Source: Ferrovibrio sp.
GTDB taxonomy: Bacteria; Pseudomonadota; Alphaproteobacteria; Ferrovibrionales; Ferrovibrionaceae
Assembly (NCBI GenBank): GCA_017991315.1
Contig: JAGOQS010000001.1
Span: 620,001-684,000, forward strand
Length of the DNA stretch: 64,000 bases
Direction: 5' to 3'
The notes beneath the pieces were generated by a model, which was given only the letters and a program-made list of their open reading frames with translations, was not told the DNA's origin and searched no databases. This document shows positions 46,650 to 64,000 of the stretch, one piece after another (position 1 is the stretch's first letter; each line of letters begins with the position of its first letter). A program made the position numbers and the translations under genes.

Positions 46650-46650
46650 T

Positions 46651-46690
46651 GAAACACTCGGAAAAACCTTGAAACACTCGGAAAAACCTT
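46651..46690. repeat. Tandem 20-bp repeat at chromosome/phage junction
   Basis: GAAACACTCGGAAAAACCTT occurs twice in direct tandem (46651-46670, 46671-46690). An inverted CGAGTGT follows at 46700-46706. It lies between gph and the integrase 3' end. It could be part of the attachment site or an integrase binding site. Confidence 0.7.
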
Positions 46691-46713
46691 TTGTATCAAC
46701 GAGTGTATGAAAA

Positions 46714-48467: not shown

Positions 48468-48468
48468 G

Positions 48469-49648: not shown

Positions 49649-49653
49649 CTTCA

Positions 49654-50706
49654 TCAACGCACTGCCGGGAAATCGCTGTGCTCACGGCCGTCGAGCAGGC
49701 GGCCGGCGGCTTTTTTGCCAATCCGAGAAACGGTGTCGTCGTCAACATCATCCATCCATTGTCGGGTATAGGGCGTTCCAAAATGGTCGCCCTCCCAGTC
49801 TCGGTGTGGGAAGCGAGAGGTTTCCGGATCGTCATCGATTGACCAGCCATCAACGGCACCGACTTCTGGCGCCCATTCCCCCCATTGCTTGAAGAAGAAC
49901 GGCACGTTGGCGGCGGCGCATTGATCGCGCAGGCTGCGCGCCCAATCGGGGTGCATCGGCCGGGCGCCTGGGCCTGATTCGCCGCCGCAGATTACCCAAT
50001 CCGGCCGCGGCACCGGCAGGTTATCTAGGGTTATCGGGCCAAGCAGCGGCTCGGCGGAGATGAAGCGAACGGCCGCCGGTGTTTCAAGTAGATGCGGGTA
50101 GCGGTCGTTGAAACTGGCCTGATCCTCGACGCTGGTGCCGAGCCAGACATTGGGGAGGGGCCAATAGGCCATTTCAATGTCGTCAGGCAGGTCAATGTCG
50201 CCGATAGATGCAACCGGCCATGGATCGCGCTTAAGGAGTGACGGATCGGCTATCGCCATGTCCACCACCGCGCGGGCGATATTTGCGCTGCGGCGCGGGG
50301 CTGTCATATACATCGCCATGCGATCCGGCCGTTTGGTGAGAATCTGGAAAGTGTGCTGGGGACTGAGCATCATCACGGCGAAGATGTGATCGAGCCATTC
50401 TTCCTTGACCTGGTCATGAAACAGGTCGGATGTGGAGTTGACGAAGATGCGGCGCGGCCGGGTCCACTGCAGCGGCAGCATCACCTGGCTATCGGCCCAG
50501 GCGATGGCGCCGGTCCAGCGGTGATCGGTCTTGCCATCCGGCAATTTCACCATGGTAGCGATGCCGTGGCCCCATTGACCGGGCTTGGAGAAGCGCGCCG
50601 CCATGATCTCGGCATAGCAGTTCCGGCAGCCCTCGGAGACGCGGGTGCAGCCCCGCACCGGGTTCCAGGTGGCGTCGGTCCATTCGATGCTGCTGTTAGC
50701 GGCCAT
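49654..50706 (-). CDS. Phage Gp37/Gp68 family protein (DUF5131)
   Basis: The 350-residue protein has the family N-terminus SSIEWTDATWNPVRGCTRVSEGCRNCYAE, with Cys20, Cys27 and Cys30 in a CX6CX2C set that may hold an iron-sulfur cluster as in radical-SAM-like enzymes. Other parts are FVNSTSDLFHDQV, FQILTKRPDRM, NVWLGTSVEDQ and WVICGGESGPGARPMHPDWARSLRDQC, all conserved in the family. The function is unknown. It is coupled to the XRE gene (overlapping stop/start). Confidence 0.88.
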   Translation of the reverse strand: MAANSSIEWTDATWNPVRGCTRVSEGCRNCYAEIMAARFSKPGQWGHGIATMVKLPDGKTDHRWTGAIAWADSQVMLPLQWTRPRRIFVNSTSDLFHDQVKEEWLDHIFAVMMLSPQHTFQILTKRPDRMAMYMTAPRRSANIARAVVDMAIADPSLLKRDPWPVASIGDIDLPDDIEMAYWPLPNVWLGTSVEDQASFNDRYPHLLETPAAVRFISAEPLLGPITLDNLPVPRPDWVICGGESGPGARPMHPDWARSLRDQCAAANVPFFFKQWGEWAPEVGAVDGWSIDDDPETSRFPHRDWEGDHFGTPYTRQWMDDVDDDTVSRIGKKAAGRLLDGREHSDFPAVR

Positions 50707-50933
50707 CACAGCACTCCTTTCATAATGCGCATCGTGGAAATGCGCAGAGCCTTTGCGATCTGCTTCACCGAGTGTATCAATACACGCTGCCTGCCCGCTT
50801 CGATGTTGGCGATGCTGGACCGCTCCCATCCAATACGGTTGGCCAGTTCTTGTTGCGTCCAACCGCGCGCTTTACGAGCAGCGAGCAGATTTGCGCCAAG
50901 AACTAGGTATGGTTTTTCCACCCGTGGCATCAC
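50706..50933 (-). CDS. XRE-family HTH regulator
   Basis: The 75-residue protein is a single helix-turn-helix: LGANLLAARKARGWTQQELANRIGWERSSIANIEAGRQRVLIHSVKQIAKALRI. It overlaps both neighbours by a few nt, so it is expressed within the leftward operon. It could regulate phage or host genes; it is not placed like a CI repressor. Confidence 0.85.
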   Translation of the reverse strand: MMPRVEKPYLVLGANLLAARKARGWTQQELANRIGWERSSIANIEAGRQRVLIHSVKQIAKALRISTMRIMKGVL

Positions 50934-51694
50934 TTCTCTCCTTTCAGCGCGGCTTCGAGCAACGCCGTCATTCGCTTCTTTGTTAACGCCAGTCTCGTGT
51001 TACGCATCAAATATGCCCTGGCGCGCTCCACCATCGCGTTATCCACCACAGGCGCGACGGGCTGGCGCAATAATTCTGCCGCACGGCCTATTTGAGAAAC
51101 CAAATCTTCGCCGGTTATCGCCATCAACTCGCGAACTGGCAGGTCAAGATTGGACGGAGCGGCAGTAAACCCGAATTGCCACTCCGTCAAAACCTTCGCC
51201 AATTCCTCGCGCTCGGCATCCGGTGCCTGTTGCGTGATATCGGAAGCCACCTCCCATTCATCGGGGTTGATATCGCCTACGTGCGCTCTTATGGTGGCAA
51301 TCTGCTCGTATGTAACTTCATCGTCGTAGTCCGGCAACGGCGCGGGCTTTTCGGTGAGCGATGCCGGGTCGATGGCGCGGATAGCGTCTATGCAGGAAGT
51401 CGCACCGTTTAATTCGCCTCCGCAGATCGGGTCCGCCGTGCTGGCGATATCAGCTTTTGCCTCAGCTTGAATTTCCACACACCGCTTTAAAGCAGCCTCC
51501 CGCATCGCCAGTGCGCCGGCAAGGAAGTCGTTGCGGCGCTCGGTCGCGAGGGCGTGCAAGGTACCCGCAGTGACTAGGCACAACTTGCCGAGGTCCCTAT
51601 CCCCGCTTCCATCGATTAGTTCAGCCTTCCCAGTCTTGGCATGCATGTCTGCCAATCGCTCCAGTACTTCGGGCGACAAATCCAGCTTGGTCAT
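50930..51694 (-). CDS. Phage protein of unknown function
   Basis: The 254-residue protein is acidic and helical (LATERRNDFLAGALAMREAALKRCVEIQAEAKADIASTADPICGGELNGATSCIDAIRAIDPAS), with a middle segment DYDDEVTYEQIATIRAHVGDINPDEWEV. It overlaps the XRE gene and the HerA-like gene by 4 nt each. No family is recognised. Confidence 0.6.
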   Translation of the reverse strand: MTKLDLSPEVLERLADMHAKTGKAELIDGSGDRDLGKLCLVTAGTLHALATERRNDFLAGALAMREAALKRCVEIQAEAKADIASTADPICGGELNGATSCIDAIRAIDPASLTEKPAPLPDYDDEVTYEQIATIRAHVGDINPDEWEVASDITQQAPDAEREELAKVLTEWQFGFTAAPSNLDLPVRELMAITGEDLVSQIGRAAELLRQPVAPVVDNAMVERARAYLMRNTRLALTKKRMTALLEAALKGEK

Positions 51695-53457
51695 TGGTCA
51701 GCCTCAAGGAACAGAATCGGCTGCGCCGCCACTGAGCCGCGCTCCGGGTAGTCGATCAGGCCAAGGCTTCGTAGTGCGCCAAGATTATTCGTGTAGGCCG
51801 AGCTGGTCGCACTGGCCTCAGCCAGGTCGGCAAGTTTGCCCCGCTCGATTGCACTGGGGTATGCGCCGATCAATGCCGAAAGTATCCGCCATTGCGGACC
51901 CGGCACCCTCGCGCGAATCAGGTTGCGCAGCTCATCGCTGGTCTTCGGGGCGTTCGGAGCTTTGGCGGCACCGCGGCCCAGAGGCAGTAGGGCAACCCTA
52001 CCACCTGACGGGTAGTCGATCATTTCAGCCGTGCGGAGCGAGCCGAGGTTATTGGTGAAGGCAGAGCTCTTCGGCGATGCATCGGACAGGAAGGCGAGTT
52101 GGATCCGGTCTGCATGCCGTACGCCGATAGTTTCCAGGTACGCCAAGGCATCAAGAATGCGCTGCTGCGGACCAGAAACCTTGACGCCAGTACCTGGCTT
52201 GACCATGGGCAGTGGGCGAGTAGGCGTGGAGCGGACGACGGGACTCGAACCCGCGACGTTCGGTTTGGAAGACCGAGGCTCTGGCCGCTGAGCTACGTCC
52301 GCTTTGAGGTGAGGCGGTGCCGTCGTGCGAATGTCCTCGGGGGGCACAAGCGACCGGATCGCGTTCTCGCTGGCGTCGAGGGCATTCTTCCTGGCCATGA
52401 CATATCCGGCCTCGAAGCCCTTCGGGTAGCCCTCCTCGTAGCCGGCGGCATGGCCCGCTTTGAAACCGTCATCGTAGGCAGCGGCAAGTGCATCCTGGTC
52501 CTGCTCCGGCGCAGGAGCGGCTTGCTGTTGGCGCTCAAGCTCGGCGATGCGCGCCTTGAGACGCTTGGGATCATTGGCTTCGGCTTCCTCGGCCGCCCCG
52601 CCGATCGCCAGGCGCAGGGCCGCGACATCGACCCGCGCCGCCACCACGTCGTGATCCCCGGTGTTGGCATCGGGGGTTGCCGTGTTGTCGTAGGTCGAGA
52701 TACGCGGCATGACGAGCTGATTGAACTGCTCGGCTTCCCCGGAGCAGATCCAGGCCGTGCCGCGCGGCTGCTTGCCGAGCGAACCGGCGATCTTGACCTG
52801 GGTCGCGGTGTCGACATTCGCCTTCAACCACTTCAGGATCGGCTCCTGGTCGGCCGGCGAGGTAAGCCGATGAGCGATCAGGGTGTCGCAGCTGCCTAGG
52901 ATAGCGTTGTGGAGCGCCTGGGTGCGCTGGGTGGCGACGATGAGCCTGATGCCCTTGGAGCGCCCGGCGGTGGCGAGCGTCTTGGCCCAGTGGATCGCCA
53001 TGTTCTCAGCGCCCAGGCCGGCGCGCTCCTTCGGTGCGAAAAGGTGTGCCTCCTCGATTACCAGGTAGAGGACGCCCTTCATGCGGCGCAGCAGCACCGG
53101 CGCGAAGTCGACGAAGAACTGCGCCAGACCGCCGGGCCTGAAATCGGCCATGTCGATGATCGAGAGCGGGAGCGAGCCATTGGCGACGAGTTCCGCCACG
53201 GTGGCGCCGGCCTTGTCGTGAAGCGGTACATGCCCGCGTGGGCCGCCCAGGATATGGAACGGCAAGCCCGGCCGCTTGCCGTCGGCGCTGGAGATCAAGC
53301 CCCACCAGTCGGACTTGATCGGATCCAGGATGCAGACCCGCGCACCTTCGGCCACGACCTGCTCAACGAGCAGCTTGGCGGTCGTGGTCTTTCCAGAGCC
53401 GGTCTTGCCGACAATTGCTGTGTGCTGCTCGATGGCCGCGCGCGGGAGAATGTTCAT
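51691..53457 (-). CDS. HerA-like ATPase with tandem winged-helix tail; ORF contains a tRNA gene
   Basis: The 588-residue ORF begins with a P-loop AIVGKTGSGKTTTAKLL (residues 17-24) and Walker B LYLVIEEAHLFAP (about 130), then IRLIVATQRTQALHNAILGSCDTLIAHRL, the HerA/FtsK-like motor pattern. A Gly/Ala spacer (about 310-350) leads to two similar winged-helix-like repeats with TNNLGSLRTAEMIDYP (about 450) and TNNLGALRSLGLIDYP (about 560). Codons 386-411 lie exactly on a tRNA-Gly gene on the same strand. A second start at 52206 could yield the tail alone. Confidence 0.8.
   Translation of the reverse strand: MNILPRAAIEQHTAIVGKTGSGKTTTAKLLVEQVVAEGARVCILDPIKSDWWGLISSADGKRPGLPFHILGGPRGHVPLHDKAGATVAELVANGSLPLSIIDMADFRPGGLAQFFVDFAPVLLRRMKGVLYLVIEEAHLFAPKERAGLGAENMAIHWAKTLATAGRSKGIRLIVATQRTQALHNAILGSCDTLIAHRLTSPADQEPILKWLKANVDTATQVKIAGSLGKQPRGTAWICSGEAEQFNQLVMPRISTYDNTATPDANTGDHDVVAARVDVAALRLAIGGAAEEAEANDPKRLKARIAELERQQQAAPAPEQDQDALAAAYDDGFKAGHAAGYEEGYPKGFEAGYVMARKNALDASENAIRSLVPPEDIRTTAPPHLKADVAQRPEPRSSKPNVAGSSPVVRSTPTRPLPMVKPGTGVKVSGPQQRILDALAYLETIGVRHADRIQLAFLSDASPKSSAFTNNLGSLRTAEMIDYPSGGRVALLPLGRGAAKAPNAPKTSDELRNLIRARVPGPQWRILSALIGAYPSAIERGKLADLAEASATSSAYTNNLGALRSLGLIDYPERGSVAAQPILFLEADQ
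52227..52302 (-). tRNA. tRNA-Gly(UCC) with encoded CCA, inside the HerA-like ORF
   Basis: The minus strand reads a full cloverleaf: acceptor GCGGACG/CGTCCGC (7 perfect pairs), D-arm GCTC...GAGC, anticodon stem TCGGT/ACCGA with loop CTTCCAA (anticodon UCC), T-arm GCGGG-TTCGAGT-CCCGT, discriminator U73 and encoded CCA at 52229-52227. Total 76 nt. It is in the same strand as, and in frame within, the ATPase ORF. Confidence 0.9.
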
Positions 53458-53723
53458 GCCGTGCCCCCATTGGCGATCTTGAGCGGCTTGGCCGCCAGCT
53501 TGCCATCGATCAGCGACACAAGGTCGCCGACGGTGAGTGCCGCCTCAGCTTCGCGGTCCTCGATCCCGATATCGAATTCATCCTCGGCCCACATCGCGAT
53601 TTCCACGATGTCGAGGCTATCCGCGCCGAGATCGTCGATGATGCGGGTGCTGTCCTGGATGGTGTCGGTGGGCTTGTTCAGGTGATCGGCCAGCCAGTGG
53701 GTCACGGTTTCGCGGGTGGTCAT
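53454..53723 (-). CDS. Phage-encoded acyl carrier protein
   Basis: The 89-residue acidic protein has the ACP pattern DSTRIIDDLGADSLDIVEIAMWAEDEFDIGI, with Ser36 of the DSL motif as the phosphopantetheine site. It is in a phage early operon between a methyltransferase and the HerA-like ATPase, overlapping both by 4 nt. No acyltransferase or synthase gene is near, so its partner is probably a host enzyme or is unknown. Confidence 0.88.
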   Translation of the reverse strand: MTTRETVTHWLADHLNKPTDTIQDSTRIIDDLGADSLDIVEIAMWAEDEFDIGIEDREAEAALTVGDLVSLIDGKLAAKPLKIANGGTA

Positions 53724-55432
53724 TCGGCGGCTCCATAAAGTGGCGGTAGGGAAACGGCAATCTGGTAAGGGCGCACCCAGATATCCTCGTTGGTCAGCAG
53801 GAAGGTCTGACCTGTCCAAACAAGCAGCAGGGTCTTGAAGATGGTCGACGCCACGGCCTCGGCAGCATCAGGCGGCACGGCATTACCGATCCACTCGCGC
53901 CATGCGGAATCGCTGTTGCCGGCGAGCCAGAACGGCTTGTCGAAGTCGACCATGCTCTGGAGCGCGCCTTGATCCAGGGTTGTGAACGGACGATGCCAAG
54001 TGCCGTCCTCGGCCCGGATCACAGCCACCACCTTGTCGTTCTGGCCAGGCAGCCCAGCCCATGTCGCCCTTGGATCGGCAACGCTCCATGGCCCATTGTC
54101 GTGCTGTCCCTGGGCCGGCACGGCGCCGGCATGTCCCGTCCACGGCACCACCCCGTAGTGGCCGCCCGTCAGGTAGGCGTTGCGGTCAGGGCTTGAGAGT
54201 GCAGTCGGGCGTGGATCAGCAACGCCCAGGCCGCCAGCACTCGGGCCGGCACCGCTGGTGATGGTCGGGCTGACATCCTCCATCCTCACGACACGGAAAG
54301 CGTTGTTGTGCTTCTGGTCAGAGCCGATGCGAGGTTCGGCCTCCGAGTATGGGCCTTGGCCGGGCGCGACAGCCGAGGTGACGGTCGAGCCAACGTCCCG
54401 CCAGCGCTTGAGCCCGAGCTGCGAAAACTCCCCTCGGAATTCATCAGCGCGTGGATCCGCTACGCTGAAGGCCCCATTGTAGGGTAGGCCACGTGTCGTT
54501 ACGACGCCGCTTTGCCCTTCCCATTCATTCACCCCCAGCACGCCACGGTGATAGGCTTCGTCCGGCAGGATAAGGTAATCCCTCAAGTGGCCATCCTCGA
54601 TGGCAAGCCGCTTGAGGCTGCGCCAATCCTTGCCGGCCTCGACAAAAGCCAGCCGCACCCACGTTTTCCAATGCAGCGACGGCACGCGGTGCATCGGCCC
54701 TGCCGCTGGATCACCGGGTAGCGGCAATTGCTCCAGAACAGAGCCGACGCTTTTCAGGGGCTTGCGTGGGGCCTGGTAAAGGAAAGGTGGCACCTTCGCC
54801 ATGTGACGCGCCACCAGCAGGAACCGCTTGCGGCGCTGCGCCAGGCCGCCGAGCTCACCGCAGCAGTGGTTGGATTCATGCACGGCATAGCCATGGGAGT
54901 GCAGCAGCGCCGTGATCTTATCGAGCAGCTTTCGCGACCTGGTGACGATACGCGGAACATTCTCGAACAGGATGAACTCGATAGGATCGTCCTTGTAGGC
55001 TTCGAGCAGCAGCCAGACGCCACGGAGAGCCAGTTCATTCAGCGCCTGATACTTGCTGGTCTTGGCACGGTTCTCCGGCAGCAGGCCGCTATTGCCCTTG
55101 CATGGAAAACTCATAAACACGACGTGAGGATGCTGATGGCCGTATGCCCGATGTAGGTCAGCAGGAACAGCCTCACGCCAACCCGTAGGAGGCAGCCGGC
55201 CATGGAAAGCGATGTACTGTTCGGTCGAGAACAGGTCCAGCAACGTGCCCTTAACGCCGGTCATGGCCTCGAAGCCTTCCAGCGCACCCTTGTCGTTGTC
55301 GATGCCACCGAGGCAGACGGATTCCGCTTCCATGTTCCCGACGCGGGCTTTGCCGCGGAGGAAGCCGGTTGCGCCTGCGCCCACGCCGCAGCACATATGA
55401 GCATGGTTGATTTTTCGACGCTCAAACGGCAT
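53720..55432 (-). CDS. DNA (cytosine-5-)-methyltransferase
   Basis: The 570-residue enzyme has motif I HMCCGVGAGATGFL, motif IV FMSFPCKGNS with catalytic Cys111, motif VI FENVPRIV and motif VIII GLAQRRKRFLLVARH. The long region after (about residues 290-500) has repeated VADPR blocks, the target-recognition section of phage C5 enzymes. Motifs IX-X follow near the end (GNAVPPDAAEAVA). No restriction partner is seen, so it is probably a self-protective phage methylase. Confidence 0.93.
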   Translation of the reverse strand: MPFERRKINHAHMCCGVGAGATGFLRGKARVGNMEAESVCLGGIDNDKGALEGFEAMTGVKGTLLDLFSTEQYIAFHGRLPPTGWREAVPADLHRAYGHQHPHVVFMSFPCKGNSGLLPENRAKTSKYQALNELALRGVWLLLEAYKDDPIEFILFENVPRIVTRSRKLLDKITALLHSHGYAVHESNHCCGELGGLAQRRKRFLLVARHMAKVPPFLYQAPRKPLKSVGSVLEQLPLPGDPAAGPMHRVPSLHWKTWVRLAFVEAGKDWRSLKRLAIEDGHLRDYLILPDEAYHRGVLGVNEWEGQSGVVTTRGLPYNGAFSVADPRADEFRGEFSQLGLKRWRDVGSTVTSAVAPGQGPYSEAEPRIGSDQKHNNAFRVVRMEDVSPTITSGAGPSAGGLGVADPRPTALSSPDRNAYLTGGHYGVVPWTGHAGAVPAQGQHDNGPWSVADPRATWAGLPGQNDKVVAVIRAEDGTWHRPFTTLDQGALQSMVDFDKPFWLAGNSDSAWREWIGNAVPPDAAEAVASTIFKTLLLVWTGQTFLLTNEDIWVRPYQIAVSLPPLYGAAE

Positions 55433-55821
55433 CAGGCCTGGCCCTCCTGATAGGCGATGAACTCCTCGATCCACCGCGGATCGGTGGTCTGGCGGCAGAG
55501 CTTGTCGGCGATCAGCAGCAGGACCTCCGCGCTCCAGCGCAGCCGGGCGGTGTTCTGCGCCGGCAGTTCTCCGGGACGGGAGGAGAACCGCGCCAGGCCG
55601 GCGAGCTCACGCATGCGGGCATGCAGGGGCGAGGCATCCTCGGGATGTTCGACGCGGAGCGAATCTGCGGCGAGGGCAAGGTCGTGGAAGCCGGCATGCC
55701 AGGCGGCCCGCATGGCATGCTCGAGTTGCGCCGCGAGCAGGATCTGGCGATCCTTGGGCACAAGCTCCAGCCGCACCATGTCGGCCGCGATGCCAGTGGC
55801 GTGCTGTTGGAAGGCGTCCAT
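55432..55821 (-). CDS. Phage protein of unknown function
   Basis: The 129-residue helical protein (MDAFQQHATGIAADMVRLELVPKDRQILLAAQLEHAMRAAWHAGFHDLALAADSL) lies between bet and the methyltransferase, overlapping both by stop/start bases. No family is recognised. Confidence 0.6.
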   Translation of the reverse strand: MDAFQQHATGIAADMVRLELVPKDRQILLAAQLEHAMRAAWHAGFHDLALAADSLRVEHPEDASPLHARMRELAGLARFSSRPGELPAQNTARLRWSAEVLLLIADKLCRQTTDPRWIEEFIAYQEGQA

Positions 55822-57269
55822 CACGGGGCCTCGCCGCCGGCGGCCGGCGCCGCGTCGGTGAAGCTCGGGGTGTCGCCCTCGTCGATGGGCCAGCCCGTTA
55901 TACGCCGGCTGTGGACAGCGAGTGTGGCGTGCATCGAGGGGCCATGTTCGGGGTGATGATGCCGCAGCCGGCGGAGTTGTTCCTGATTGCTTTCCCACAG
56001 GGCTTTGGCGGCCTGTGGTGCCAACTTCAGCTTATCGAGGGCACGACTGAAGCCCTGGTAGAACTTGCCAGAGCCTGAAAACCGATAGGTGCCGACATCG
56101 TCGCCATCGGGGATTATCAACGGCCAAACCGGCTCATCGCTGTCGTCGGCCTCGTTCGGCTTGACGCTGGAGGCCGCCGGCTCTCCCATGGCGGCAAGGC
56201 CTTCGCTGCCCTTGGCCGCCGCCTGCTTGCCCTTCGCCTCTAGCGCGATGAATTCCTTGTGCAGGGCCTCAGCAGCAGCCTTGCCGTCGTCGGTCTTGCG
56301 CAGATCGGCGAACTGCTGGCCGGCATTATTCTCCCAGATCGACGCCAGCACATACCATTGGCCGGCAGCAGCGGCCTGGCGCATGGCGGCCAGCATCGCG
56401 TCATAGAAGTCGCCCGGCGTATAGAGCAGTTCCTCGCCGTGCTCGGTGATGAAGGGGATTGTGGCCTCGGCCTCGGTTTCCCCGGCGCCCCCGGATTCTT
56501 CGCGCGTGAAATCCTCGCGGCGTGGCGGCGGCGTTTCCTCACCAGACGAGCGCGGCGCGTCGATGATACGGCCTTCCATTTCCTCGGCGGTGTAGTCATT
56601 GCCGAGTTCCTCGGGGAAAGCGCGACGCAGTGCGGCGGCTTCGGCAACCTTCTCCAGCATGTAATGCGGACTGCGGGTCCATTTATCGTTCGGGCAGTCC
56701 GTACCCTTCCAGGTGCCGAAGCTGGCCCTGTAGTAGACCTTCGGCCCGACAAAGCCGACGCGCTGCCCGTCGATCATCCGAAACACGGTCATCTGACACC
56801 ACTCGGGATAGGAGACGGTGACGGTGCGCGTATCACCGCGCTTCTCGCCGGTGAACGTCTCGGACTTGTCGGGCCCGAACGAAGCCGCGTCACAACCGGC
56901 GAATTTACCCGTGCGATGCGCGGTGGTGCGCAGTTCGCCAATGCCGGGCCATACGGTCTCGACCTCGTAGCCCTTCTTGCTGTCCCAAACCGGAACGATG
57001 TGGACTGGGCGTTTGAAGGGATCGAGCTTGCGTGCCCGGCAATAGGCCAGGGCCAGCACGATGGCCTCCGGGGTCTTGGCCGAGGGAAAGATGGAGTCGG
57101 TGAGTGCGCGCCATTCGGCCGGCCCGATACCGAACTTCTCCTCAATGCCTTTGACGAAGGGAATGCGGCCGCGCTCGACCTGGACCACCTGACCTTTGCT
57201 GGCCGCATCCTGCAACTGCTCGAGACGCTGATCGTGAGCGATCTGCTCCTTGGTTTTCTGCTTCGCCAT
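55821..57269 (-). CDS. bet: Phage recombination protein Bet/RecT family
   Basis: The 482-residue protein has the Bet core in its first 250 residues: TDSIFPSAKTPEAIVLALAYCRARKLDPFKRPVHIVPVWDSKKGYEVETVWPGIGELRTTAHRTGKFAGCD and SPHYMLEKVAEAAALRRAFPEELGNDYTAEEM. It anneals single strands in phage recombination. The C-terminal half (about residues 260-480) is low-complexity plus a helical segment not typical of Bet. The start MAKQKTKEQI at 57269 is chosen. No exonuclease gene is identified beside it. Confidence 0.9.
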   Translation of the reverse strand: MAKQKTKEQIAHDQRLEQLQDAASKGQVVQVERGRIPFVKGIEEKFGIGPAEWRALTDSIFPSAKTPEAIVLALAYCRARKLDPFKRPVHIVPVWDSKKGYEVETVWPGIGELRTTAHRTGKFAGCDAASFGPDKSETFTGEKRGDTRTVTVSYPEWCQMTVFRMIDGQRVGFVGPKVYYRASFGTWKGTDCPNDKWTRSPHYMLEKVAEAAALRRAFPEELGNDYTAEEMEGRIIDAPRSSGEETPPPRREDFTREESGGAGETEAEATIPFITEHGEELLYTPGDFYDAMLAAMRQAAAAGQWYVLASIWENNAGQQFADLRKTDDGKAAAEALHKEFIALEAKGKQAAAKGSEGLAAMGEPAASSVKPNEADDSDEPVWPLIIPDGDDVGTYRFSGSGKFYQGFSRALDKLKLAPQAAKALWESNQEQLRRLRHHHPEHGPSMHATLAVHSRRITGWPIDEGDTPSFTDAAPAAGGEAP

Positions 57270-57270
57270 A

Positions 57271-58317
57271 TCAGCCTCGCACGGTGGTGTTGGTTTCGGG
57301 GAAGATCGACACGCCCGGGATCTCTTCGACCCCGCCTTCGTTGATGGCGGCGCGGATCGCGGCCTCATCGGGCATCAGGTATTTGCGCGGCAGGGCGTCG
57401 ATATCGGTGATGCGGAAGGCCATGCGCTGGCGCAGGGTCGCCATGCTGCCCATGTCGCCGCGTACCCGGGCGGATTTGATCGACGCCGCAACCTGCTTCT
57501 GCGCGTGATGCGCTTCGCCCTCGGTGGTGACGGCGCGGCGGCGGGCCAGGCGGGCGTCGCGGTTGGCATCCTCGGCTTCCACCTCGGCGGCTTCCGCCTG
57601 GGCCTGGGCTGCGGTGGCTTCGTCGGCCTTCTTCTGTGCCTCGGCGGCGCGCTTGTCGGCGGCTGCCTTGGCCTTCGCGGCTTTCTCCTCTGCCTTGGCC
57701 CGGGCCTCGGCATCGACCTGCTGCTTGGCGGCACGCTCTGCGGCACGCTTGGCATCCTCGGCAGCCTTCGCGGCCCGCGCCGCCTGGGCCTCGGCTTCCC
57801 GCTTGATGCGCTCGGCTTCCGCCGCTGCGCGCTGTCGCTCGGCCTCGGCCTCGCGCTCCTTGCGTTCGGCTTCCTCGCGCTCGCGCCGGGCCCGGGCCTC
57901 TGCTTCGCGCGCCAGGCGGGCCTCTTCCTCGCGCTGCCGCCGTGCCATTTCGGCCTTCTGGTCCTGCCAGCGCTTGAGGCGCGGCCGCAACTGCTCATCG
58001 TGCTCCCTGATCCGCGTGATGCGGCGCTGGAAGAAGTTCTCCACCATCTGCGCCATGGCGAGGAAAGGCGCCTTGATACGGGCCCGGGTATCGTCGATAG
58101 CCTTCCGCGCCTTGGCCAGCTGCACGAGAAAATCAGAGAGCCGCGCGGCCTCGTCGTCGTTGCTGATAACAGCCGGGACGCGCGCCACGGCCTCCTCATA
58201 CCTGGTGATCAGCGTGTCGTAGGAGGCGACCGCGCGCTCCATCTCCTCGCGCAGCGCCTCTTCCTGGGGCGGGTTGTTGCCGCCCATGCCGAGGCGTGAT
58301 TCGTCGTCGATGCTCAT
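57271..58317 (-). CDS. Long coiled-coil phage protein
   Basis: The 348-residue protein has an N-terminal region (residues 1-115), a very Ala/Glu/Arg/Lys-rich coiled coil of about 140 residues (about 115-255) and a conserved-looking C-terminus RITDIDALPRKYLMPDEAAIRAAI. Proteins with this C-terminus sit next to RecT genes in other phages, which suggests a recombination role by inference. It is 1 nt upstream of bet. The coiled coil is coded by GC-rich near-repetitive DNA. Confidence 0.75.
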   Translation of the reverse strand: MSIDDESRLGMGGNNPPQEEALREEMERAVASYDTLITRYEEAVARVPAVISNDDEAARLSDFLVQLAKARKAIDDTRARIKAPFLAMAQMVENFFQRRITRIREHDEQLRPRLKRWQDQKAEMARRQREEEARLAREAEARARREREEAERKEREAEAERQRAAAEAERIKREAEAQAARAAKAAEDAKRAAERAAKQQVDAEARAKAEEKAAKAKAAADKRAAEAQKKADEATAAQAQAEAAEVEAEDANRDARLARRRAVTTEGEAHHAQKQVAASIKSARVRGDMGSMATLRQRMAFRITDIDALPRKYLMPDEAAIRAAINEGGVEEIPGVSIFPETNTTVRG

Positions 58318-58326
58318 CAGGTGACC

Positions 58327-58794
58327 TCAGAAGGGCGAAGGGGCGTGGAGCCAGTCGGTGCGCTGGCGGGGATTGGCGTGAGGCGAAGTCGGCAGGTGCT
58401 CGCGGGCGTGGCGGGCGCGGGCCACCATGAAGGCGTATTCCTCGGGCTCTATGGCCTCGGCCATCAGGCCATGGCGGGACCAGGCCGCGAGTGCGCCGAG
58501 GCCCATGCAGGCGATCTCACCCGGATCGTGGCCGGCAGGCGGATCAGCGGTGACGCGCGCGCCGCTCAGCTCCGCGTGATACTCGATATCGGCCAGCAGC
58601 ACGCCGCTCTCCCGGCACCGGTGCTGCACGGTCCAGAAGCGCAGCGGCGTCGGCACCGTGCCGCGCGCCAGGCGCACCTGGTACCAGCCCGGCTGCGGCA
58701 GGGCATGGTCCTGATCGGGGTTGCCATGCTGGCGCCGGAAGCGCCACTCAGCGCTGGTGGTGGAAGTGGCGGTGATGATGGGCGAGGGGGTCAT
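58327..58794 (-). CDS. Phage protein of unknown function
   Basis: The 155-residue protein (MTPSPIITATSTTSAEWRFRRQHGNPDQDHALPQPGWYQVRL...) ends in a helical part ACMGLGALAAWSRHGLMAEAIEPEEYAFMVARARHAREHL. The ATG overlaps the TGA of the micro-ORF (ATGA). No family recognised. Confidence 0.6.
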   Translation of the reverse strand: MTPSPIITATSTTSAEWRFRRQHGNPDQDHALPQPGWYQVRLARGTVPTPLRFWTVQHRCRESGVLLADIEYHAELSGARVTADPPAGHDPGEIACMGLGALAAWSRHGLMAEAIEPEEYAFMVARARHAREHLPTSPHANPRQRTDWLHAPSPF

Positions 58795-58865
58795 GCCGTC
58801 CCCCAGGTCAGGCGCCACCAGCGCCATTGCTGCCGCACGCGATAGAACCAGCCGCCGCGCCGCAT
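58791..58865 (-). CDS. Trp/Arg-rich 24-codon micro-ORF
   Basis: The ORF encodes 24 residues starting MRRGGWFYRVRQQWRWWRL, with five Trp and seven Arg. Its ATG overlaps the upstream gene's stop (TGATG at 58867-58863), and its TGA overlaps the next gene's ATG (ATGA). Both junctions being coupled strongly suggests it is translated. It may be a membrane-active peptide, a regulator, or just a coupling device. Confidence 0.5.
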   Translation of the reverse strand: MRRGGWFYRVRQQWRWWRLTWGTA

Positions 58866-59143
58866 CATTCACTCCCCCGGCGATACCAGTCGGCGTGCAG
58901 GCAGGGCGCATACGCGGTGCGGCCCTGCTCGAGATCCTCGGCTACTTCAATCGCGGCCTCGGCATCAGCCTGCAGGTCGATGGCGTGATCGGCATCGCCG
59001 GCGATCAGTGCCGTCTTCGCCGCTCGCTGCAGCGCATCGGCATAGCGGCGCGCGCCTCGGGCCGCGACCTCGGCCGGGCTCAGGCTCGGGCCCTTGCCGG
59101 CGGGCCGGATCAGCGGGAAACCATTCTCAAGCCTGGGGATCAT
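58865..59143 (-). CDS. Phage protein of unknown function
   Basis: The 92-residue protein starts MIPRLENGFPLIRPAGKGPSLSPAEV and is Ala/Asp-rich and helical (AAKTALIAGDADHAIDLQADAEAAIEVAEDLEQGR). It ends CLHADWYRRG. No family is recognised. It precedes the micro-ORF with a TGATG overlap. Confidence 0.6.
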   Translation of the reverse strand: MIPRLENGFPLIRPAGKGPSLSPAEVAARGARRYADALQRAAKTALIAGDADHAIDLQADAEAAIEVAEDLEQGRTAYAPCLHADWYRRGSE

Positions 59144-59150
59144 GTTCACC

Positions 59151-59465
59151 TCACGCCGCGGGACGCGGCCCGCCGTCATGGTCGGGGGAGACCTGAGACG
59201 GCGGGCACGCGGTGCTCCGACCTGGCGAGGCAGCCCAGGGCGGAGCGGGTGACTGTGAAAAGACAAGGCGCAGATGGCCAGGCGGCGTCAGCACCGGAGC
59301 GGGCTCGATCTCGTGCGCGGGGATGAACCAGTCGGAGTCCGGCGTGGCGTCGAGCGCCACGGTGAGGAACTGGTTGGTGAAGCCGGCCGGGCTGGCGTTC
59401 ACCACCGTCCCGTAGGCGCCCGATACGGGATCGCGGACGCGGTCGTATGGGCGGAAGCGGCTCAT
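59151..59465 (-). CDS. Small SH3-like phage protein of unknown function
   Basis: The 104-residue protein begins MSRFRPYDRVRDPVSGAYGTVVNASP, a KOW- or SH3-like beta pattern found in many small phage proteins, followed by a Pro-rich low-complexity tail (PSQVSPDHDGGPRP). The ATG overlaps the LRR gene stop (ATGA). The tail may be disordered. Confidence 0.5.
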   Translation of the reverse strand: MSRFRPYDRVRDPVSGAYGTVVNASPAGFTNQFLTVALDATPDSDWFIPAHEIEPAPVLTPPGHLRLVFSQSPAPPWAASPGRSTACPPSQVSPDHDGGPRPAA

Positions 59466-60097
59466 GGCACGGTCTCGTTCTGCCGCCCGCTGGCGTAGTC
59501 CGCGATGCGCTCCACAAGTTTGTGGCAGTCGTCCCGGTGACGGGGTGCGCCAGGCCCCCAATGTTTGCGGGCATCTTCGAGACTGAGGAGTCGGCAGCCA
59601 GCTTGCACAAACCACTGCCCGCGCAGCACAAGGCCTCGGAACATGTAGCCGCGACCATCTACTCCAGCCTCAATAAAGAGGGTCAGCCCAGGGCAGTTCA
59701 CGACCCGCACGACGGTGGCGGCCTCGAGCGCCGGCAGCGCCGTCAGCCCAGGGCAGTTCACGACCCGCACGTCGGTGGCGGCCTCGAGCGCCGGCAGCGC
59801 CGTCAGCCCAGGGCAGTTCTCGACCCGCACGACGGTGGCGGCCTCGAGCGCCGGCAGCGCCGTCAGCCCAGGGCAGTTCTCGACCCACACGACGGTGGCG
59901 GCCTCGAGCGCCGGCAGCGCCGTCAGCCCAGGGCAGTTCTCGACCCACACGTCGGTGGCGGCCTCGAGCGCCGGCAGCGCCGTCAGCCCAGGGCAGTTCA
60001 CGACCCGCACGACGGTGGCGGCCTCGACGTTTTCAAAAAGCCACGACAACGAGCGGCGGCGGCCATTTACGCTCAAATGGATCTGATCCGGGTTCAT
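59462..60097 (-). CDS. Leucine-rich-repeat phage protein with variable repeats
   Basis: The 211-residue protein has an N-terminal cap (MNPDQIHLSVNGRRRSLSWLFEN), six strand segments linked by five 20-residue repeats NCPGLTALPALEAA-T.V.V., then a C-terminal domain MFRGLVLRGQWFVQAGCRLLSLEDARKHWG. LRR of this 20-residue LPALxxL type occurs in bacterial effectors and phages. The start at 60097 has GGAGA 6 nt upstream and overlaps a 9-codon ORF. Each unit differs only at three positions (see findings). Target unknown. Confidence 0.75.
   Translation of the reverse strand: MNPDQIHLSVNGRRRSLSWLFENVEAATVVRVVNCPGLTALPALEAATDVWVENCPGLTALPALEAATVVWVENCPGLTALPALEAATVVRVENCPGLTALPALEAATDVRVVNCPGLTALPALEAATVVRVVNCPGLTLFIEAGVDGRGYMFRGLVLRGQWFVQAGCRLLSLEDARKHWGPGAPRHRDDCHKLVERIADYASGRQNETVP
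59682..60027. repeat. 60-bp tandem repeat, 5.8 copies, inside LRR gene
   Basis: Units at 59701, 59761, 59821, 59881 and 59941 are 60 bp each, with partial copies at both ends. The motif is CGACCC(G/A)CACG(A/T)CGG... and ends GGGCAGTTC(A/T)-like. Only three positions vary per unit and all 57 others are identical, including third codon bases. Confidence 0.97.
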
Positions 60098-60123
60098 AGA
60101 TTTCTCCATTGAAATTTGGTCAT
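60094..60123 (-). CDS. 9-codon relay mini-ORF upstream of LRR gene
   Basis: ATG at 60123 overlaps the stop of the preceding gene (ATGA) and reads M-T-K-F-Q-W-R-N-L, ending with TGA whose bases overlap the LRR gene's ATG at 60097 (ATGA). It would let ribosomes pass from the 76-residue gene to the LRR gene by two reinitiations. Too short to name. Confidence 0.35.
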   Translation of the reverse strand: MTKFQWRNL

Positions 60124-60350
60124 GGCAGCGTCCCCTGGGCCTGGTTGAGGAGCACGATGCCGAGCAGCAGGTCGGCGCGGGCCACAGCGGCGGCAGCGTC
60201 GGCCATGGCGATGGCGGGATCGCGATAACGGGGCACCCTATAGGGCAGCGTCTCGCCGCCGCAGGCTTCGCTGGCGAGCCGCACCACGGCATCGCGCAGT
60301 TCGGCCTGCCGGGTTTCTCGCGCGATGCGATGGCGTGAGAGCCAGGTCAT
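60120..60350 (-). CDS. Phage protein of unknown function
   Basis: The 76-residue helical protein (MTWLSRHRIARETRQAELRDAVVRLASEACGGETLPYR) overlaps the preceding gene's stop (ATGA). An earlier ATG at 60386 is possible but would overlap that gene more. No family recognised. Confidence 0.55.
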   Translation of the reverse strand: MTWLSRHRIARETRQAELRDAVVRLASEACGGETLPYRVPRYRDPAIAMADAAAAVARADLLLGIVLLNQAQGTLP

Positions 60351-60574
60351 GCGCAGCTCCTCCAGCGCGACCAGGTGGCGCGGCATGGATTCGCGGGATC
60401 GGCCGAAATGGAGGGCTCGTAGCCGTACCAGTCCCAGCGCCAGGCGCTCATCGCGGCTTCGAGATCCTCGGGCCGCTCAACGGTCAGTTCACCCGTAAGG
60501 TCGCCATGCGATCCGCGGCCCGTTTCCTTGATGGAGAAGGCCGGTCTGCTGCTGGATGAGGGGCCCGCGCTCAT
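60347..60574 (-). CDS. Phage protein of unknown function
   Basis: The 75-residue protein (MSAGPSSSSRPAFSIKETGRG...DLEAAMSAWRWDWYGYEPS) has several aromatic residues in its C-terminal half. Start ATG overlaps the preceding membrane protein's stop (ATGA). No family recognised. Confidence 0.5.
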   Translation of the reverse strand: MSAGPSSSSRPAFSIKETGRGSHGDLTGELTVERPEDLEAAMSAWRWDWYGYEPSISADPANPCRATWSRWRSCA

Positions 60575-60816
60575 GCCAGCACCCATTCCAGGATCTGCAC
60601 CAGAGCGGAGAACAGCCACCACAGTCCTTCGGCGATCAGCCACAGGCCGTGCAAGGCCGCGACGACAAAACCGACCACCAAGGTCCAGGCCAGAATGGTG
60701 ATGGGATTGCTGAGCGCTGGCGGCATCGTGTCGCGCGGGTTCTCATCGTCGCGGCCCCAGAATTCCTCCCACCAGGAGGCAACCTTGGCCTTGGCGCGTT
60801 CGATCAGGTTCGGCAT
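60571..60816 (-). CDS. Small membrane protein of phage
   Basis: The 81-residue protein has an amphipathic N-terminus (KVASWWEEFWGRD) and two hydrophobic segments: ITILAWTLVVGFVVAALHGLWLI and LWWLFSALVQILEWVLA. It is likely an inner-membrane protein; no family is recognised. Confidence 0.6.
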   Translation of the reverse strand: MPNLIERAKAKVASWWEEFWGRDDENPRDTMPPALSNPITILAWTLVVGFVVAALHGLWLIAEGLWWLFSALVQILEWVLA

Positions 60817-60818
60817 GG

Positions 60819-61367
60819 CTATTCGGCCTCCGTGGTGAAGCGGGCGCGGTGCGCCATGAAGTGGCTGTCATCGGCCGCCATGGATTCGGCAATGGTGGTG
60901 AGCTGCGCAGGCGGCACCGCGTGCAGGCCCGCCGAATAGCCGCGCTCGGCCTGGGCGTGGAGTTGCTGGAGCGATGCCGCGGGGGTCGGGGCGGCGATGC
61001 AGGGCTCAGGCAACGCTGAGCCTGGCGGCCGCATGGTCACGTAATCGAGCAAGGCCTGCTGGGCATCGGCGATCTCCGGCAGGGCGTCATGCTCGGATTC
61101 GAACTGCACCGCGATGTGCCGCAGCACGGCGTCGAGATGCAGGGCCAGGCGGTCGGCATGGTTCAGCGCATGGACAATGGCGGCGGTGCCGGCCACGCCG
61201 CGACGGCTCGAGACATGGGCGATGAAGTCGCCATCGGCGCCAGCGATGGCATGGCTGCCATGGGCATGAACGGGAAGCGGCAGGGCTTCGCCCACGGGGC
61301 GGCTAGGCCGGGCATCGCCGGGTTCGGCGAGGGGAAGAGTGGAGGGAGCGGGGGCCTGGCAGTCCAT
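60819..61367 (-). CDS. Phage protein of unknown function
   Basis: The 182-residue protein is Ala/His-rich with a helical C-terminus (LQQLHAQAERGYSAGLHAVPPAQLTTIAESMAADDSHFMAHRARF). It is 2 nt upstream of the membrane-protein gene, so cotranscribed. No family is recognised. Confidence 0.55.
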   Translation of the reverse strand: MDCQAPAPSTLPLAEPGDARPSRPVGEALPLPVHAHGSHAIAGADGDFIAHVSSRRGVAGTAAIVHALNHADRLALHLDAVLRHIAVQFESEHDALPEIADAQQALLDYVTMRPPGSALPEPCIAAPTPAASLQQLHAQAERGYSAGLHAVPPAQLTTIAESMAADDSHFMAHRARFTTEAE

Positions 61368-61484
61368 GTGCGGTCCTAGAGGCGCGAGGGATGGGGCTGA
61401 GTGGCGGGAATGCAGACCAGCCTTGTGAGCCGGCCCGCACCCCGCCTAGCATCGGCGGTGCGAACCCAACCGATGGAGGAGACG

Positions 61485-61772
61485 ATGGAGAGCAAACTGG
61501 AGCGCCGTGTGTCGTTGCTCGAGCGGCAGGCCGGCGAACACACCTTGGCGGCGGCACGAAATGCCGTCATGGCCGAGGTTGCGATTGAAGTCGCCGCGTA
61601 TTTAGGGATATTGCTCGGCGCGACATCGCGCCCGATGCAGGAAGCCCTGGAGAAACTGCCGGCGATGCTATTGAAGGCCAGGCCGGAAGGCCCCGCGAAG
61701 GAAATGGCCGCCACGATCATGGAGCGACTCCACCTGCAGTGGGCGCGCCCGAATCCGTGGCGGGACAAATAG
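61485..61772 (+). CDS. Small helical phage protein (against operon direction)
   Basis: The 95-residue protein starts MESKLERRVSLLERQAGEHTLAAARNAV and is helical, with a heptad-like first 25 residues. ATG 61485 has GGAGGAG just upstream (61475-61481); ATG 61473 is an alternative. Its 3' end overlaps the convergent 61717-61971 gene. No family recognised. Confidence 0.55.
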   Translation: MESKLERRVSLLERQAGEHTLAAARNAVMAEVAIEVAAYLGILLGATSRPMQEALEKLPAMLLKARPEGPAKEMAATIMERLHLQWARPNPWRDK

Positions 61773-61971
61773 TCGCCCGCCGCCATGCGTCATTGGCAAT
61801 GGCCAGTGCGCCGGCGGATTCTTCCATATGCTCAACCCAGCGCTCCAGATGGGCGCGCGCCATGGGATCAGCTTCCTGGGCGGCAAAGTCAGCAGGCAGG
61901 AAGCTGACATAGTCGCCCTGGTTGGCGATCGCGAGATACCGGCGATAGAGGGGGCTATGGGGCCGGGCCAT
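61717..61971 (-). CDS. Phage protein of unknown function
   Basis: The 84-residue protein (MARPHSPLYRRYLAIANQGDYVSFLPADFAAQEADPMARAHLERWVEHMEESAGALAIANDAWRRA) is amphipathic and acidic. Its 3' end overlaps a gene on the + strand by 56 nt. No family recognised. Confidence 0.5.
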   Translation of the reverse strand: MARPHSPLYRRYLAIANQGDYVSFLPADFAAQEADPMARAHLERWVEHMEESAGALAIANDAWRRATICPATDSGAPTAGGVAP

Positions 61972-61974
61972 CGC

Positions 61975-62190
61975 TCAGGCCTCCTGCAGCAGCGCGCCGA
62001 GGAACTGGGCCGCCTCAGGAGAGAGCTTGAAACGCTGGAGCGGAGCGCCCGGGACCTCGATCACAAGCATCTTGCCCTCAGGAGTGGGAAGGACTTGAAT
62101 GCTTTCAATCGCAAGGGATGCGCGCTCCACGGCTCGACCGTTGACGCACCACTGATAGAGGGAGGCCTTGATGTCGTTGCTGTCAGACAT
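61975..62190 (-). CDS. Phage protein of unknown function
   Basis: The 71-residue protein (MSDSNDIKASLYQWCVNGRAVERASLAIESIQVL...FKLSPEAAQFLGALL) is a plausible small globular protein. Its ATG shares the CATG palindrome with a + strand ATG at 62189. It is 3 nt upstream of the next leftward gene. Confidence 0.5.
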   Translation of the reverse strand: MSDSNDIKASLYQWCVNGRAVERASLAIESIQVLPTPEGKMLVIEVPGAPLQRFKLSPEAAQFLGALLQEA

Positions 62191-62482
62191 GCTGAATGCC
62201 CTGGATCGCTGGGATGAATGGCGGGAGATGCGCGCCGCGCCGAAACGCATTGCCGATCTGGAGGCCCGCATGGGCGCGCTTGAGGCCGCGTTGGCCAAGC
62301 GGCCGCCGGCGGAGGCCTGCCCGATCTGCGGCGGCGAGATGAAGATCACGAAGGTCGTCCCGCATCGCCAATTTGGCGCGATGGGCCTGCAGGACAGGCT
62401 CTATGCCTGCCAGGACGCGGCTTGCGGTCACAGCGAGCAGCGGATGCATGACCCGAATGGGCGCCTGGGAAAGAAGGGCTGA
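62171..62482 (+). CDS. Small zinc-ribbon phage protein (against operon direction)
   Basis: The 103-residue protein has a heptad helix (LNALDRWDEWREMRAAPKRIADLEARMGALEAALA) followed by CPICGGEMKI and YACQDAACGHSEQRMHD, a CxxC...CxxxxC zinc ribbon. ATG 62171 (or 62189) is the start. It ends 9 nt before the convergent 62491 gene. Confidence 0.65.
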   Translation: MSLLSDMLNALDRWDEWREMRAAPKRIADLEARMGALEAALAKRPPAEACPICGGEMKITKVVPHRQFGAMGLQDRLYACQDAACGHSEQRMHDPNGRLGKKG

Positions 62483-62490
62483 AGCGCGCA

Positions 62491-62907
62491 TCACCGACGC
62501 CCCATAGGCAGGACGGCCTCGGGACCGGCCTCACCGACATGCGCGATGCCGGCGCCTGCGAAAGGCGGGCGCCATTTCGGCCGGGCGGTCTGGCGGTCCC
62601 GCGCCATGTAGCCGGAGAGCGCTTCATAAAGGCGACCCTCCCGGCGCTCATCGAGCGCCGCGGCGATATCGCGAGGCAATTCGGTCGAGCGTTCTTCGGG
62701 CGGGATCGAGGCATCGCTCAGGCCGAATTCATAGCCCGCGCTATAGCCGATGAAAAAGATGATCCTGGTGAGGGCCGCGTCGCCGGCAAGGGCAGTGACG
62801 TGCTTCCGGGCGAGCTGGTAGATGACCTCGTAGGCGATGGCGACCCGCAGTGCCGGCAGAAAGGCAAAAGCCTTGTCGGCGGTAGCGGCTGCGGCGGTGT
62901 CGGGCAT
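62491..62907 (-). CDS. First gene of leftward operon, unknown, with tape-measure-like tail
   Basis: The 138-residue protein starts MPDTAAAATADKAFAFLPALRVAIAYEVIYQLARKHVTALAGDAAL and ends GAGIAHVGEAGPEAVLPMGR, a motif seen at the end of phage tape-measure proteins. A strong AGGGGAG RBS precedes ATG 62907. It is directly downstream of the putative promoter/operator, so it opens the operon. Confidence 0.6.
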   Translation of the reverse strand: MPDTAAAATADKAFAFLPALRVAIAYEVIYQLARKHVTALAGDAALTRIIFFIGYSAGYEFGLSDASIPPEERSTELPRDIAAALDERREGRLYEALSGYMARDRQTARPKWRPPFAGAGIAHVGEAGPEAVLPMGRR

Positions 62908-62932
62908 CGTGGTCTCCCCTGGTGATGGGGAG

Positions 62933-62974
62933 ATGGTACGCATATGCGGACTTTTGTCAATACGCAAAATCGTA
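62933..62974 (-). promoter_or_regulatory. Leftward phage promoter with two operator-like repeats
   Basis: On the minus strand a -35 TTGACA (62960-62955) is followed after 16 bp by TACCAT (62938-62933). Two related 14-bp sites on + read TACGCATATGCGGA (62937-62950) and TACGCAAAATCGTA (62961-62974), 24 bp apart, one over the -10 side and one just before the -35. CGCATATGCG is a perfect palindrome. This looks like a repressor-controlled pL. The repressor gene is not identified. Confidence 0.65.
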
Positions 62975-63057
62975 CTAATGAATTTTAATCTAAGAAGCGG
63001 TCCTTTCGACTAAAGCGAAGTTCCATTTAAATCAGTGAGACTTAAGGCTCTATATGA

Positions 63058-63651
63058 CTAAAATGCGCGCCGCCCACTCTTACTTAGAGCCTCAGCCTTC
63101 CGTCGAGAAATCTCCTGGGATGCATACGGGTGAGTCATTTCGAGATAAGAAAAATCTGCCGTGCTTGATCTTTGCCTTAACTTCATTTGCCCGTAAGCCG
63201 TTTCCCAAACGCAGTGTTCGGATTGGTACATGACTCCCATCCTACTCTGCCATGGCAATACTGTTTGGCTTGTTGGCGGCCCATATCGTGTGACCAGCAT
63301 CGATTTCAGAGCCTGATAGTCAGCGACAACAACACTCATTGCGAAAGCAACAAATTGATTATCCAAGTAAACGTACGAAAGAAACTCTACAGTTATCCCT
63401 TCCAATTTATACATATTGCCCCCAATGCGACCTGTGCTTTGGAGGGACCTGTCGTAACAAGTAACCAAACCGGGAATAGCATCATCATTATTGCAGGGTT
63501 GAGAAAACTGATGACCCATATAATTTCCCTGGTGTTTCGAAAGGCTATCGCCGAAGCGGTGACCGCGAAATGAGAATGTTTCGTCTATTTGGGCTGATGC
63601 AGATCCCAGCAAGACAATGAATATCATGGCTATATAGGTTGTGATCCTCAT
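63058..63651 (-). CDS. Secreted AT-rich protein of unknown function
   Basis: The 197-residue protein has a signal peptide (MRITTYIAMIFIVLLGSASA-QI) and four cysteines in the first half. Its codons are AT-rich compared with all neighbours, a sign of separate acquisition. It contains SFRGHRFGDSLSKHQGNYMGHQF and LVTRYGPPTSQTVLPWQSR; no family is recognised. It is possibly a phage cargo (moron) gene expressed from the prophage. Confidence 0.7.
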   Translation of the reverse strand: MRITTYIAMIFIVLLGSASAQIDETFSFRGHRFGDSLSKHQGNYMGHQFSQPCNNDDAIPGLVTCYDRSLQSTGRIGGNMYKLEGITVEFLSYVYLDNQFVAFAMSVVVADYQALKSMLVTRYGPPTSQTVLPWQSRMGVMYQSEHCVWETAYGQMKLRQRSSTADFSYLEMTHPYASQEISRRKAEALSKSGRRAF

Positions 63652-64000
63652 AACTTCCCCCGCTAGATGTTACCCAAACTTTCTGAACTGCCAGATTCGG
63701 CGATAATCAGATTGCGGAAGTAACTATAGCGCGAACTTCTAATTGACAAAAACAGTAAAACACGCTTCGATTGATGTGCTGCGAGAGCGGCATAACTGCC
63801 GGGTGAATGCCCTCACCCCCCAACGTTAATTCGCCTGGGACTCCCTGCCAGCGCGCCGGCATTTCCAGGTCTAATCAACTCGCGACTGTGAGTCGATGGG
63901 GTGGGGGAACTAGTGACTAAATGCTTATCTATTTGCCGCTTTTTGCCGCAATTTACACTAATAGAGAGCCCAAATTTATCCATGCGGTACAGCCATGGAT
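63652..64000. other. AT-rich non-coding stretch at window end
   Basis: No convincing ORF, RNA or repeat is seen here. The bases just upstream of the 63651 start (on minus) may hold its promoter. The last 100 bases include AT-rich runs but no clear phage repressor, attachment site or ribosome site. Confidence 0.5.

Follow-up and report, generated by a model that had tools for sequence, protein, structure and literature searches.

A prophage leucine-rich repeat gene of Ferrovibrio with homogenised repeats and an excess of amino-acid changes at three strand positions

In two reports (PMC12222747, PMC4986451), the WD40 repeats of the HNWD (het-d/het-e/het-r) NOD-like receptor genes of Podospora anserina are described as highly conserved within each gene, subject to concerted evolution and variable in number; four codons per repeat are hypervariable, under diversifying selection and located on the recognition face. 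Fungal NOD-like receptors carry WD40 and also ANK and TPR repeats, and leucine-rich repeats (LRRs) are not found there according to PMC4986451. Here we describe an LRR gene in a prophage of Ferrovibrio sp., located in a stretch of 64,000 nucleotides (the window; G000:C2:620001-684000 of a 2.38-Mb genome, 72.6% complete). The scaffold of its repeat units, and of those in related viral arrays, is homogenised, amino-acid changes are in excess, and these changes are concentrated at three columns of the repeat. The product of this early-region gene is probably a small LRR protein that evolves fast on its concave face, a surface that, we infer, binds a partner.

The earlier note had described 60-bp units differing at three bases only. 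Tandem Repeats Finder and a codon listing agree with this, and also with its coordinates (Table 1) and reading frame. In the five full units of the window array, the only differences are GTC/GAC (V/D, column 3), CGG/TGG (R/W, column 5) and GTG/GAG (V/E, column 7). As had been noticed from the letters alone, all three are nonsynonymous and occupy alternating positions, namely the x positions of the T-x-V-x-V-x-N strand. The triads at columns 3/5/7 read VRV, DWE, VWE, VRE, DRV and VRV from the N to the C terminus, in agreement with the codon listing. The protein shows the features of the bacterial 20-residue LRR class: a 20-residue repeat, a parallel strand, buried hydrophobic residues and a solenoid fold. 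The best structural match in BFVD was an uncharacterised Caudovirales protein (E 9e-7).

It had also been argued that the lack of silent change implies diversification. A random single-base change in a window unit is nonsynonymous in 126 of the 175 non-stop cases, and three nonsynonymous changes out of three have P = 0.37 by chance. From the window alone, the argument is weak, and relatives were therefore gathered from IMG/VR. The argument from position is strong: in the window, the three codons that differ are those of columns 3, 5 and 7 and no others (1 in 1140 if columns are equivalent), and eight further arrays uphold it.

The nine arrays, with 51 units, are the window array and the viral arrays L002, L003, L009, L012+L097, L024, L101+L099, L115 and L116. 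Excluded from the counts were L004/L011, whose array has two complete units and runs off its contig, the single unit of L010, the two units of L015 and the weak matches L005 and L006. Units were picked by a pattern loosely fixing columns 1, 2, 4, 6 and 9; their starts were consecutive at 20 residues, so that no inner unit was lost. Last units were excluded from columns 10-20. L101 ends with a duplicate incomplete unit, which was omitted both from the column counts and from the calculation of nonsynonymous and silent rates (pN and pS), and the divergent first unit of L097 was included in the former and dropped in the latter. The tally of residues and unit order covers 49 units with triads read by hand; it includes L101 only (four units with the incomplete one) and no L097 unit. 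The comparison of silent differences within and between arrays used L012 without L097.

Columns 3, 5 and 7 each showed an amino-acid difference in 73 of 129 unit pairs, whereas no other column exceeded 16 of 90. None of 200,000 column permutations reached the observed sum. Seven of the nine arrays vary at all three columns; the exceptions are L002, which lacks variation at column 3, and L101+L099, which lacks it at column 7. In four arrays (window, L101+L099, L115 and L116) there is no other amino-acid variation among the compared columns. The other 17 codons contain 16 nonsynonymous and 10 silent changes. At columns 3, 5 and 7, 36 nonsynonymous changes stand against only 3 silent ones.

This excess might be explained by relaxed constraint, that is, the scaffold is under purifying selection and columns 3, 5 and 7 are merely tolerant, so that drift accumulates there. 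By LRR convention these columns are solvent-exposed. In addition, the silent rate at the three columns is 0.129 versus 0.038 overall, and the excess over this same-column rate is only 2.4-fold, with few silent sites. However, tolerance cannot push the nonsynonymous rate above the silent rate, and the ratio of pN at the three columns to all-column pS is 8.1 (bootstrap over arrays 4.6-21). The choice of residues is also restricted: among 147 tallied triad residues, N, Q, T, G, A and P are absent and S occurs 3 times (the untallied L015 has A and K). Furthermore, multi-base codon differences (GAG/TCC, GAG/TAC) occur in otherwise near-identical DNA. Relaxed constraint is unlikely on these grounds.

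Codons for the same scaffold residue show silent differences of 0-7.5% within arrays and 20-73% between arrays. This means that scaffolds were homogenised inside each array while the lineages diverged; at the DNA level, this homogenisation is recent duplication, deletion or conversion of units. The codons of columns 3, 5 and 7 escape it. V/D occurs together with R/W in four arrays having different scaffold codons (window, L101, L115 and L116); in other words, these alternatives were kept through homogenisation or re-made after it. In the 49 units, column 3 has D/E in 24, V/Y/F in 23 and K in 2; column 5 has R/H in 23, W/Y/L/V in 25 and S in 1; column 7 has D/E in 22, V/Y/W/L/I/M in 25 and S in 2. 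Columns 3 and 7 are thus mostly acidic versus hydrophobic, and column 5 mostly basic versus aromatic.

Columns 3 and 5, six bases apart, show all four combinations in the window and in L116 (the full set is present in none of the other seven arrays), so that sites do reassort within units. Movement of whole units cannot explain this reassortment, which requires either codon changes that recur or conversion over very short tracts. Arginine is encoded by both AGG and CGG in L116 and L002, which fits repeated origin or plain silent change.

The order of the units is indistinguishable from random, with 53 adjacent identities versus 52.8 expected and 30 like-charge contacts versus 27.5 expected. 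This argues against a folding or stacking reason for the alternation, in which residues would be chosen to keep the side-chain ladders of the solenoid compatible for folding or solubility without any ligand. The varied residues are indeed predicted to stack in ladders on the concave face, but uniform charged ladders exist, column 3 of L002 and column 7 of L101+L099 being all D. Such structural tuning seems rather improbable.

Changes arising through a diversity-generating retroelement are known to occur only where the template has A. Targeted mutagenesis of this kind, rewriting three codons, would yield position-specific diversity amid identical DNA, and AGG/CGG/TGG at column 5 and GTC/GAC are possible products of an A-containing template. 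Third-base and non-A changes (GAT/GAG/AAG/TTT, TGG/GAA, CTC/GAC), however, are not what adenine-only rewriting would give, and the nine arrays lack the G and A products that random replacement of A in these codons should yield. Reverse transcriptase (PF00078) was found neither in the host genome (0 of 1; 72.6% complete) nor in the phage contigs (0 of 8), which may be fragments. We regard a retroelement as very unlikely.

The quality of the assemblies should also be considered. Short-read repeat arrays are often mis-assembled, and of the eight viral arrays counted, six reach a contig end (L003, L009, L012/L097, L024, L101/L099 and L116), as do L004 and L010. In contigs 3300047994_000162 and 3300025308_000004, gene halves were found at both ends, as expected for circular genomes opened in the repeat. 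The number of LRR units is at least 8 in L003 versus 2 in L015; the end that these two share is 88.6% identical over 377 bases. The window array, however, sits within a 1.0-Mb contig in a full-length gene, and L115 is a 58-kb viral contig with an internal, complete LRR gene, the product of which is 47% identical to the window protein over 202 residues. Since the same columns vary in nine arrays, an assembly or chance artefact of a short repeat is scarcely credible.

The array is followed by a C-terminal domain with the pattern AGCR, about ten residues, HW. The window copy is 53% identical to that of L010 and 49% to that of L013. No Pfam or NCBIfam family matched the domain above cut-off; the C-terminal part of L019 matches phrog_37032, a PHROG family without assigned function. 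Four of the nine LRR arrays have the domain (window, L003, L101+L099 and L115), four lack it (L002, L012+L097, L024 and L116), and in L009 its place is beyond the contig end. The same domain stands behind pentapeptide-like solenoids in L014, L017 and L019 (by Pfam), in L118-L120 (by eye and PHROGs) and, weakly (E 4e-3), in gp016 of Caulobacter phage RW. It is also carried by gp1 of EBPR siphovirus 2, where the gene is cut at the record start and the solenoid lies outside the record. In L018 (within 5560-6147) it follows a GGSF[E/K/L] repeat in which the scaffold codons are almost the same throughout and one position alternates between GAG/AAG/CTG. In L021 it follows a hexapeptide-like repeat, read by eye, the units of which differ in the same style: the divergent last unit apart, only CGG/TGG (R/W) and TTC/TCC (F/S) are different. 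In L013 (3-116), two DNA-identical 19-residue repeats (LKADAAKTVYASGCTALTE) are located ahead of it. The phage contig L024 carries its LRR array gene (1-357) close to a pentapeptide gene with an AGC-type C terminus (896-1447). A pentapeptide-like protein is also encoded at 17786-18724 (minus strand) in the chromosomal part of the window; the AGCR domain was not seen in it.

The viral contigs L118 and L119 show only two differences over 4,547 aligned bases, and the solenoid array holds both: a 15-bp pentapeptide unit and an A/C missense base (L118 1841-1891, L119 1242-1278). The adjoining 16,250 bases are identical, making about 20.8 kb in all. If this is not mis-assembly, the pentapeptide-like array is the fastest-changing part seen in these phages. 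A change of repeat number between near-identical phages was seen in this pentapeptide-like pair only.

We favour the explanation that the concave face of the LRR protein is a fast-evolving binding surface. The array would recombine through its own repeats, with turnover between identical units, and a phage recombinase encoded nearby perhaps helps this process. Because the partner to be bound keeps changing, three residues of the concave face would be under strong diversifying selection, and diversity there would be kept and renewed. The conserved C-terminal domain occurs with different solenoids and would therefore serve as a shared docking or effector module.

Several points weigh against this explanation, in addition to the same-column ratio of 2.4 and the constant columns of L002 and L101+L099 mentioned above. 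The nine arrays are homologous and hence not independent, so that the permutation result given above overstates their independence. Extra varying columns are present in L003 (seven), L012+L097 (three, two of them via the divergent first unit), L009 (two), and L002 and L024 (one each). L015, outside the count, is invariant at columns 3, 5 and 7 in its two units. Unit counts are uncertain because of the six viral arrays touching contig ends. The C-terminal domain is not needed for the pattern, since it is absent from L002, L012, L024 and L116. The role of RecT or YqaJ is read from gene neighbourhood only, and the partner is a guess, the likeliest candidate being a variable factor of the host or of a rival phage that is encountered early in infection or during lysogeny. 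Taken as a whole, the earlier interpretation is supported in part and strengthened by the relatives.

More speculatively, temperate phages might carry a modular, quickly retargetable recognition protein, consisting of one conserved C-terminal module and interchangeable beta-solenoids (LRR, pentapeptide-like and hexapeptide-like). Its outward residues would form a small code (acidic/hydrophobic, basic/aromatic, acidic/hydrophobic), which the phage's own recombination would rewrite as codons change and as DNA-identical units are gained or lost. Among viruses of prokaryotes, such a protein would correspond to the non-self repeat receptors of fungi. We offer this only as a tentative possibility.

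Few genomes gave a match. A protein search found one in 3 of 192 relatives including the gene's own genome, the other two matches being 33-35% identical over part of the protein. The LRR alignment found 2 of 385 genomes of the class (its own, and G302 through the C-terminal region), and the C-terminal alignment 1 of 398 genomes of the phylum (its own only). None of 11 stretches in genome contigs was confirmed. A DNA-pattern scan of genome contigs gave 72 stretches, of which one, L075, had at least two repeat-like motifs in the pattern frame; it was rejected as not a real array. In the viral scans, 3 of 6, 5 of 35, 2 of 46, 8 of 88, 4 of 8 and 3 of 4 stretches were confirmed. The viral DNA-pattern scans gave 3 and 16 stretches, and 7 of the 16 (L100, L103-L107 and L109) had no repeat motif in any frame. 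In INPHARED, the window protein found nothing and the L009 protein a single match (E 0.8); PLSDB contained five records with 32-35% identity to the L009 protein.

In genome G309, labelled as the same species, the match to the window stops at 46693, and the bases that follow there correspond to G000:C2:727846 onward. Because of this empty site, the LRR gene is placed in an insertion of about 61 kb (Table 1). The two flank matches overlap by 20 bp, which would suit an attachment core and is the kind of trace that site-specific integration leaves. Further right, the prophage has genes for a repressor, a DnaB-like helicase, terminase, portal and major head proteins and a tape-measure protein. The neighbourhood of the LRR gene (RecT, DNA methyltransferase and acyl carrier protein) is taken as the leftward early region. 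Recombinase genes are also near other relatives, YqaJ in L003 and L010 and RecT in L098, and relatives of the DUF5131-type protein and the ATPase are encoded near the L115 LRR gene. ARAGORN gave a tRNA-Gly(TCC) at 52227-52302 (minus), on the same strand as and within the ATPase open reading frame, which reads through.

Table 1. Features of the LRR gene and the surrounding prophage, in window coordinates.
Feature	Position	Strand	Remarks
LRR gene, 211 aa	60097-59462	minus	N-terminal cap, six strand segments, C-terminal domain; ATG at 60097 with GGAG just before; stop at 59462-59464
60-bp tandem array	59682-60027	minus	Tandem Repeats Finder: period 60, 5.8 copies, 97% matches
N-terminal cap (MNPDQIHLSVNGRRRSLSWLFENVEA)	60020-60097	minus	caps alike in L009, L101, L115, L015
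C-terminal domain, AGCR...EDARKHW motif	59465-59695	minus	sequence comparison with other phage solenoid proteins
Left part of ~61-kb prophage	46694-64000		continues to G000:C2:727845; G309 empty-site comparison
Two tandem copies of a 20-bp word at left junction	46649-46693		also at G309 empty site
Integrase	46714-47676	minus	phrog_1, 2.5e-43; beside left junction
DUF5131-type protein	49654-50829	minus	phrog_2045; 32% over 399 aa to DUF5131 protein near L115 LRR gene
HerA/FtsK-like ATPase	51691-53457	minus	46% over 586 aa to protein ~2.6 kb from L115 LRR gene
Acyl carrier protein, prophage-borne	53454-53729	minus	phrog_5934; adjoins DNA methyltransferase
RecT single-strand annealing protein	55821-57275	minus	PF03837, 7e-18

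If the favoured explanation is true, programmable binding surfaces evolve in temperate phages as well, on LRRs and perhaps on solenoids of other kinds, with no retroelement found. The arms race would be testable in simple lysogens, and the natural alleles would in effect be a ready-made set of LRR binders. No description of such a phage repeat protein was found in full-text searches, which used narrow term combinations and covered subscription journals thinly. None of nine proteins matched the PADLOC defence-protein models at E <= 0.01, this library covering defence and not counter-defence.

The bacterial 20-residue LRR proteins IpaH, SspH1/2, SlrP, YopM and EspK/GogB were considered as relatives. 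IpaH/SspH effectors carry a NEL ubiquitin-ligase domain. The window protein matched no Pfam family and no NCBIfam effector or ligase model above cut-off; its scores were 12.4 bits for SspH2 (cut-off 1243) and 12.6 for EspK (cut-off 934). The L003 protein, with 29.7 and 35.2 bits, respectively, was also far under these cut-offs. Membership among the IpaH/SspH/YopM effectors was rejected in the absence of an effector match above the curated cut-off, and their use in animal cells does not transfer to the phage protein.

Repeat receptors with identical scaffolds that diversify a few surface codons are known in fungi, and TAL effectors are a further case. TAL effectors also have near-identical repeats with two variable residues in each (the repeat-variable diresidue), but the repeats have 34 residues. 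TAL repeats are helical and read DNA, whereas nucleic-acid reading is without support for the phage protein. The variable lymphocyte receptors of jawless fish are assembled somatically in animals, whereas the phage arrays are germline; TAL effectors and lamprey receptors are looser parallels than HNWD. The pentapeptide-like phage proteins with the AGCR domain (L014, L017, L019 and L118-L120) share the C-terminal domain, but their solenoid is different.

The HNWD genes represent the closest described mode, in which homogenised repeats are combined with diversifying selection at a few fixed codons, and the phage arrays show this combination. The phage gene is not a member of that family: it encodes a 211-residue prophage LRR protein in which no NTPase or death domain was recognised. 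A phage LRR protein with concerted scaffolds and hypervariable concave residues is a variant on this known mode of evolution.
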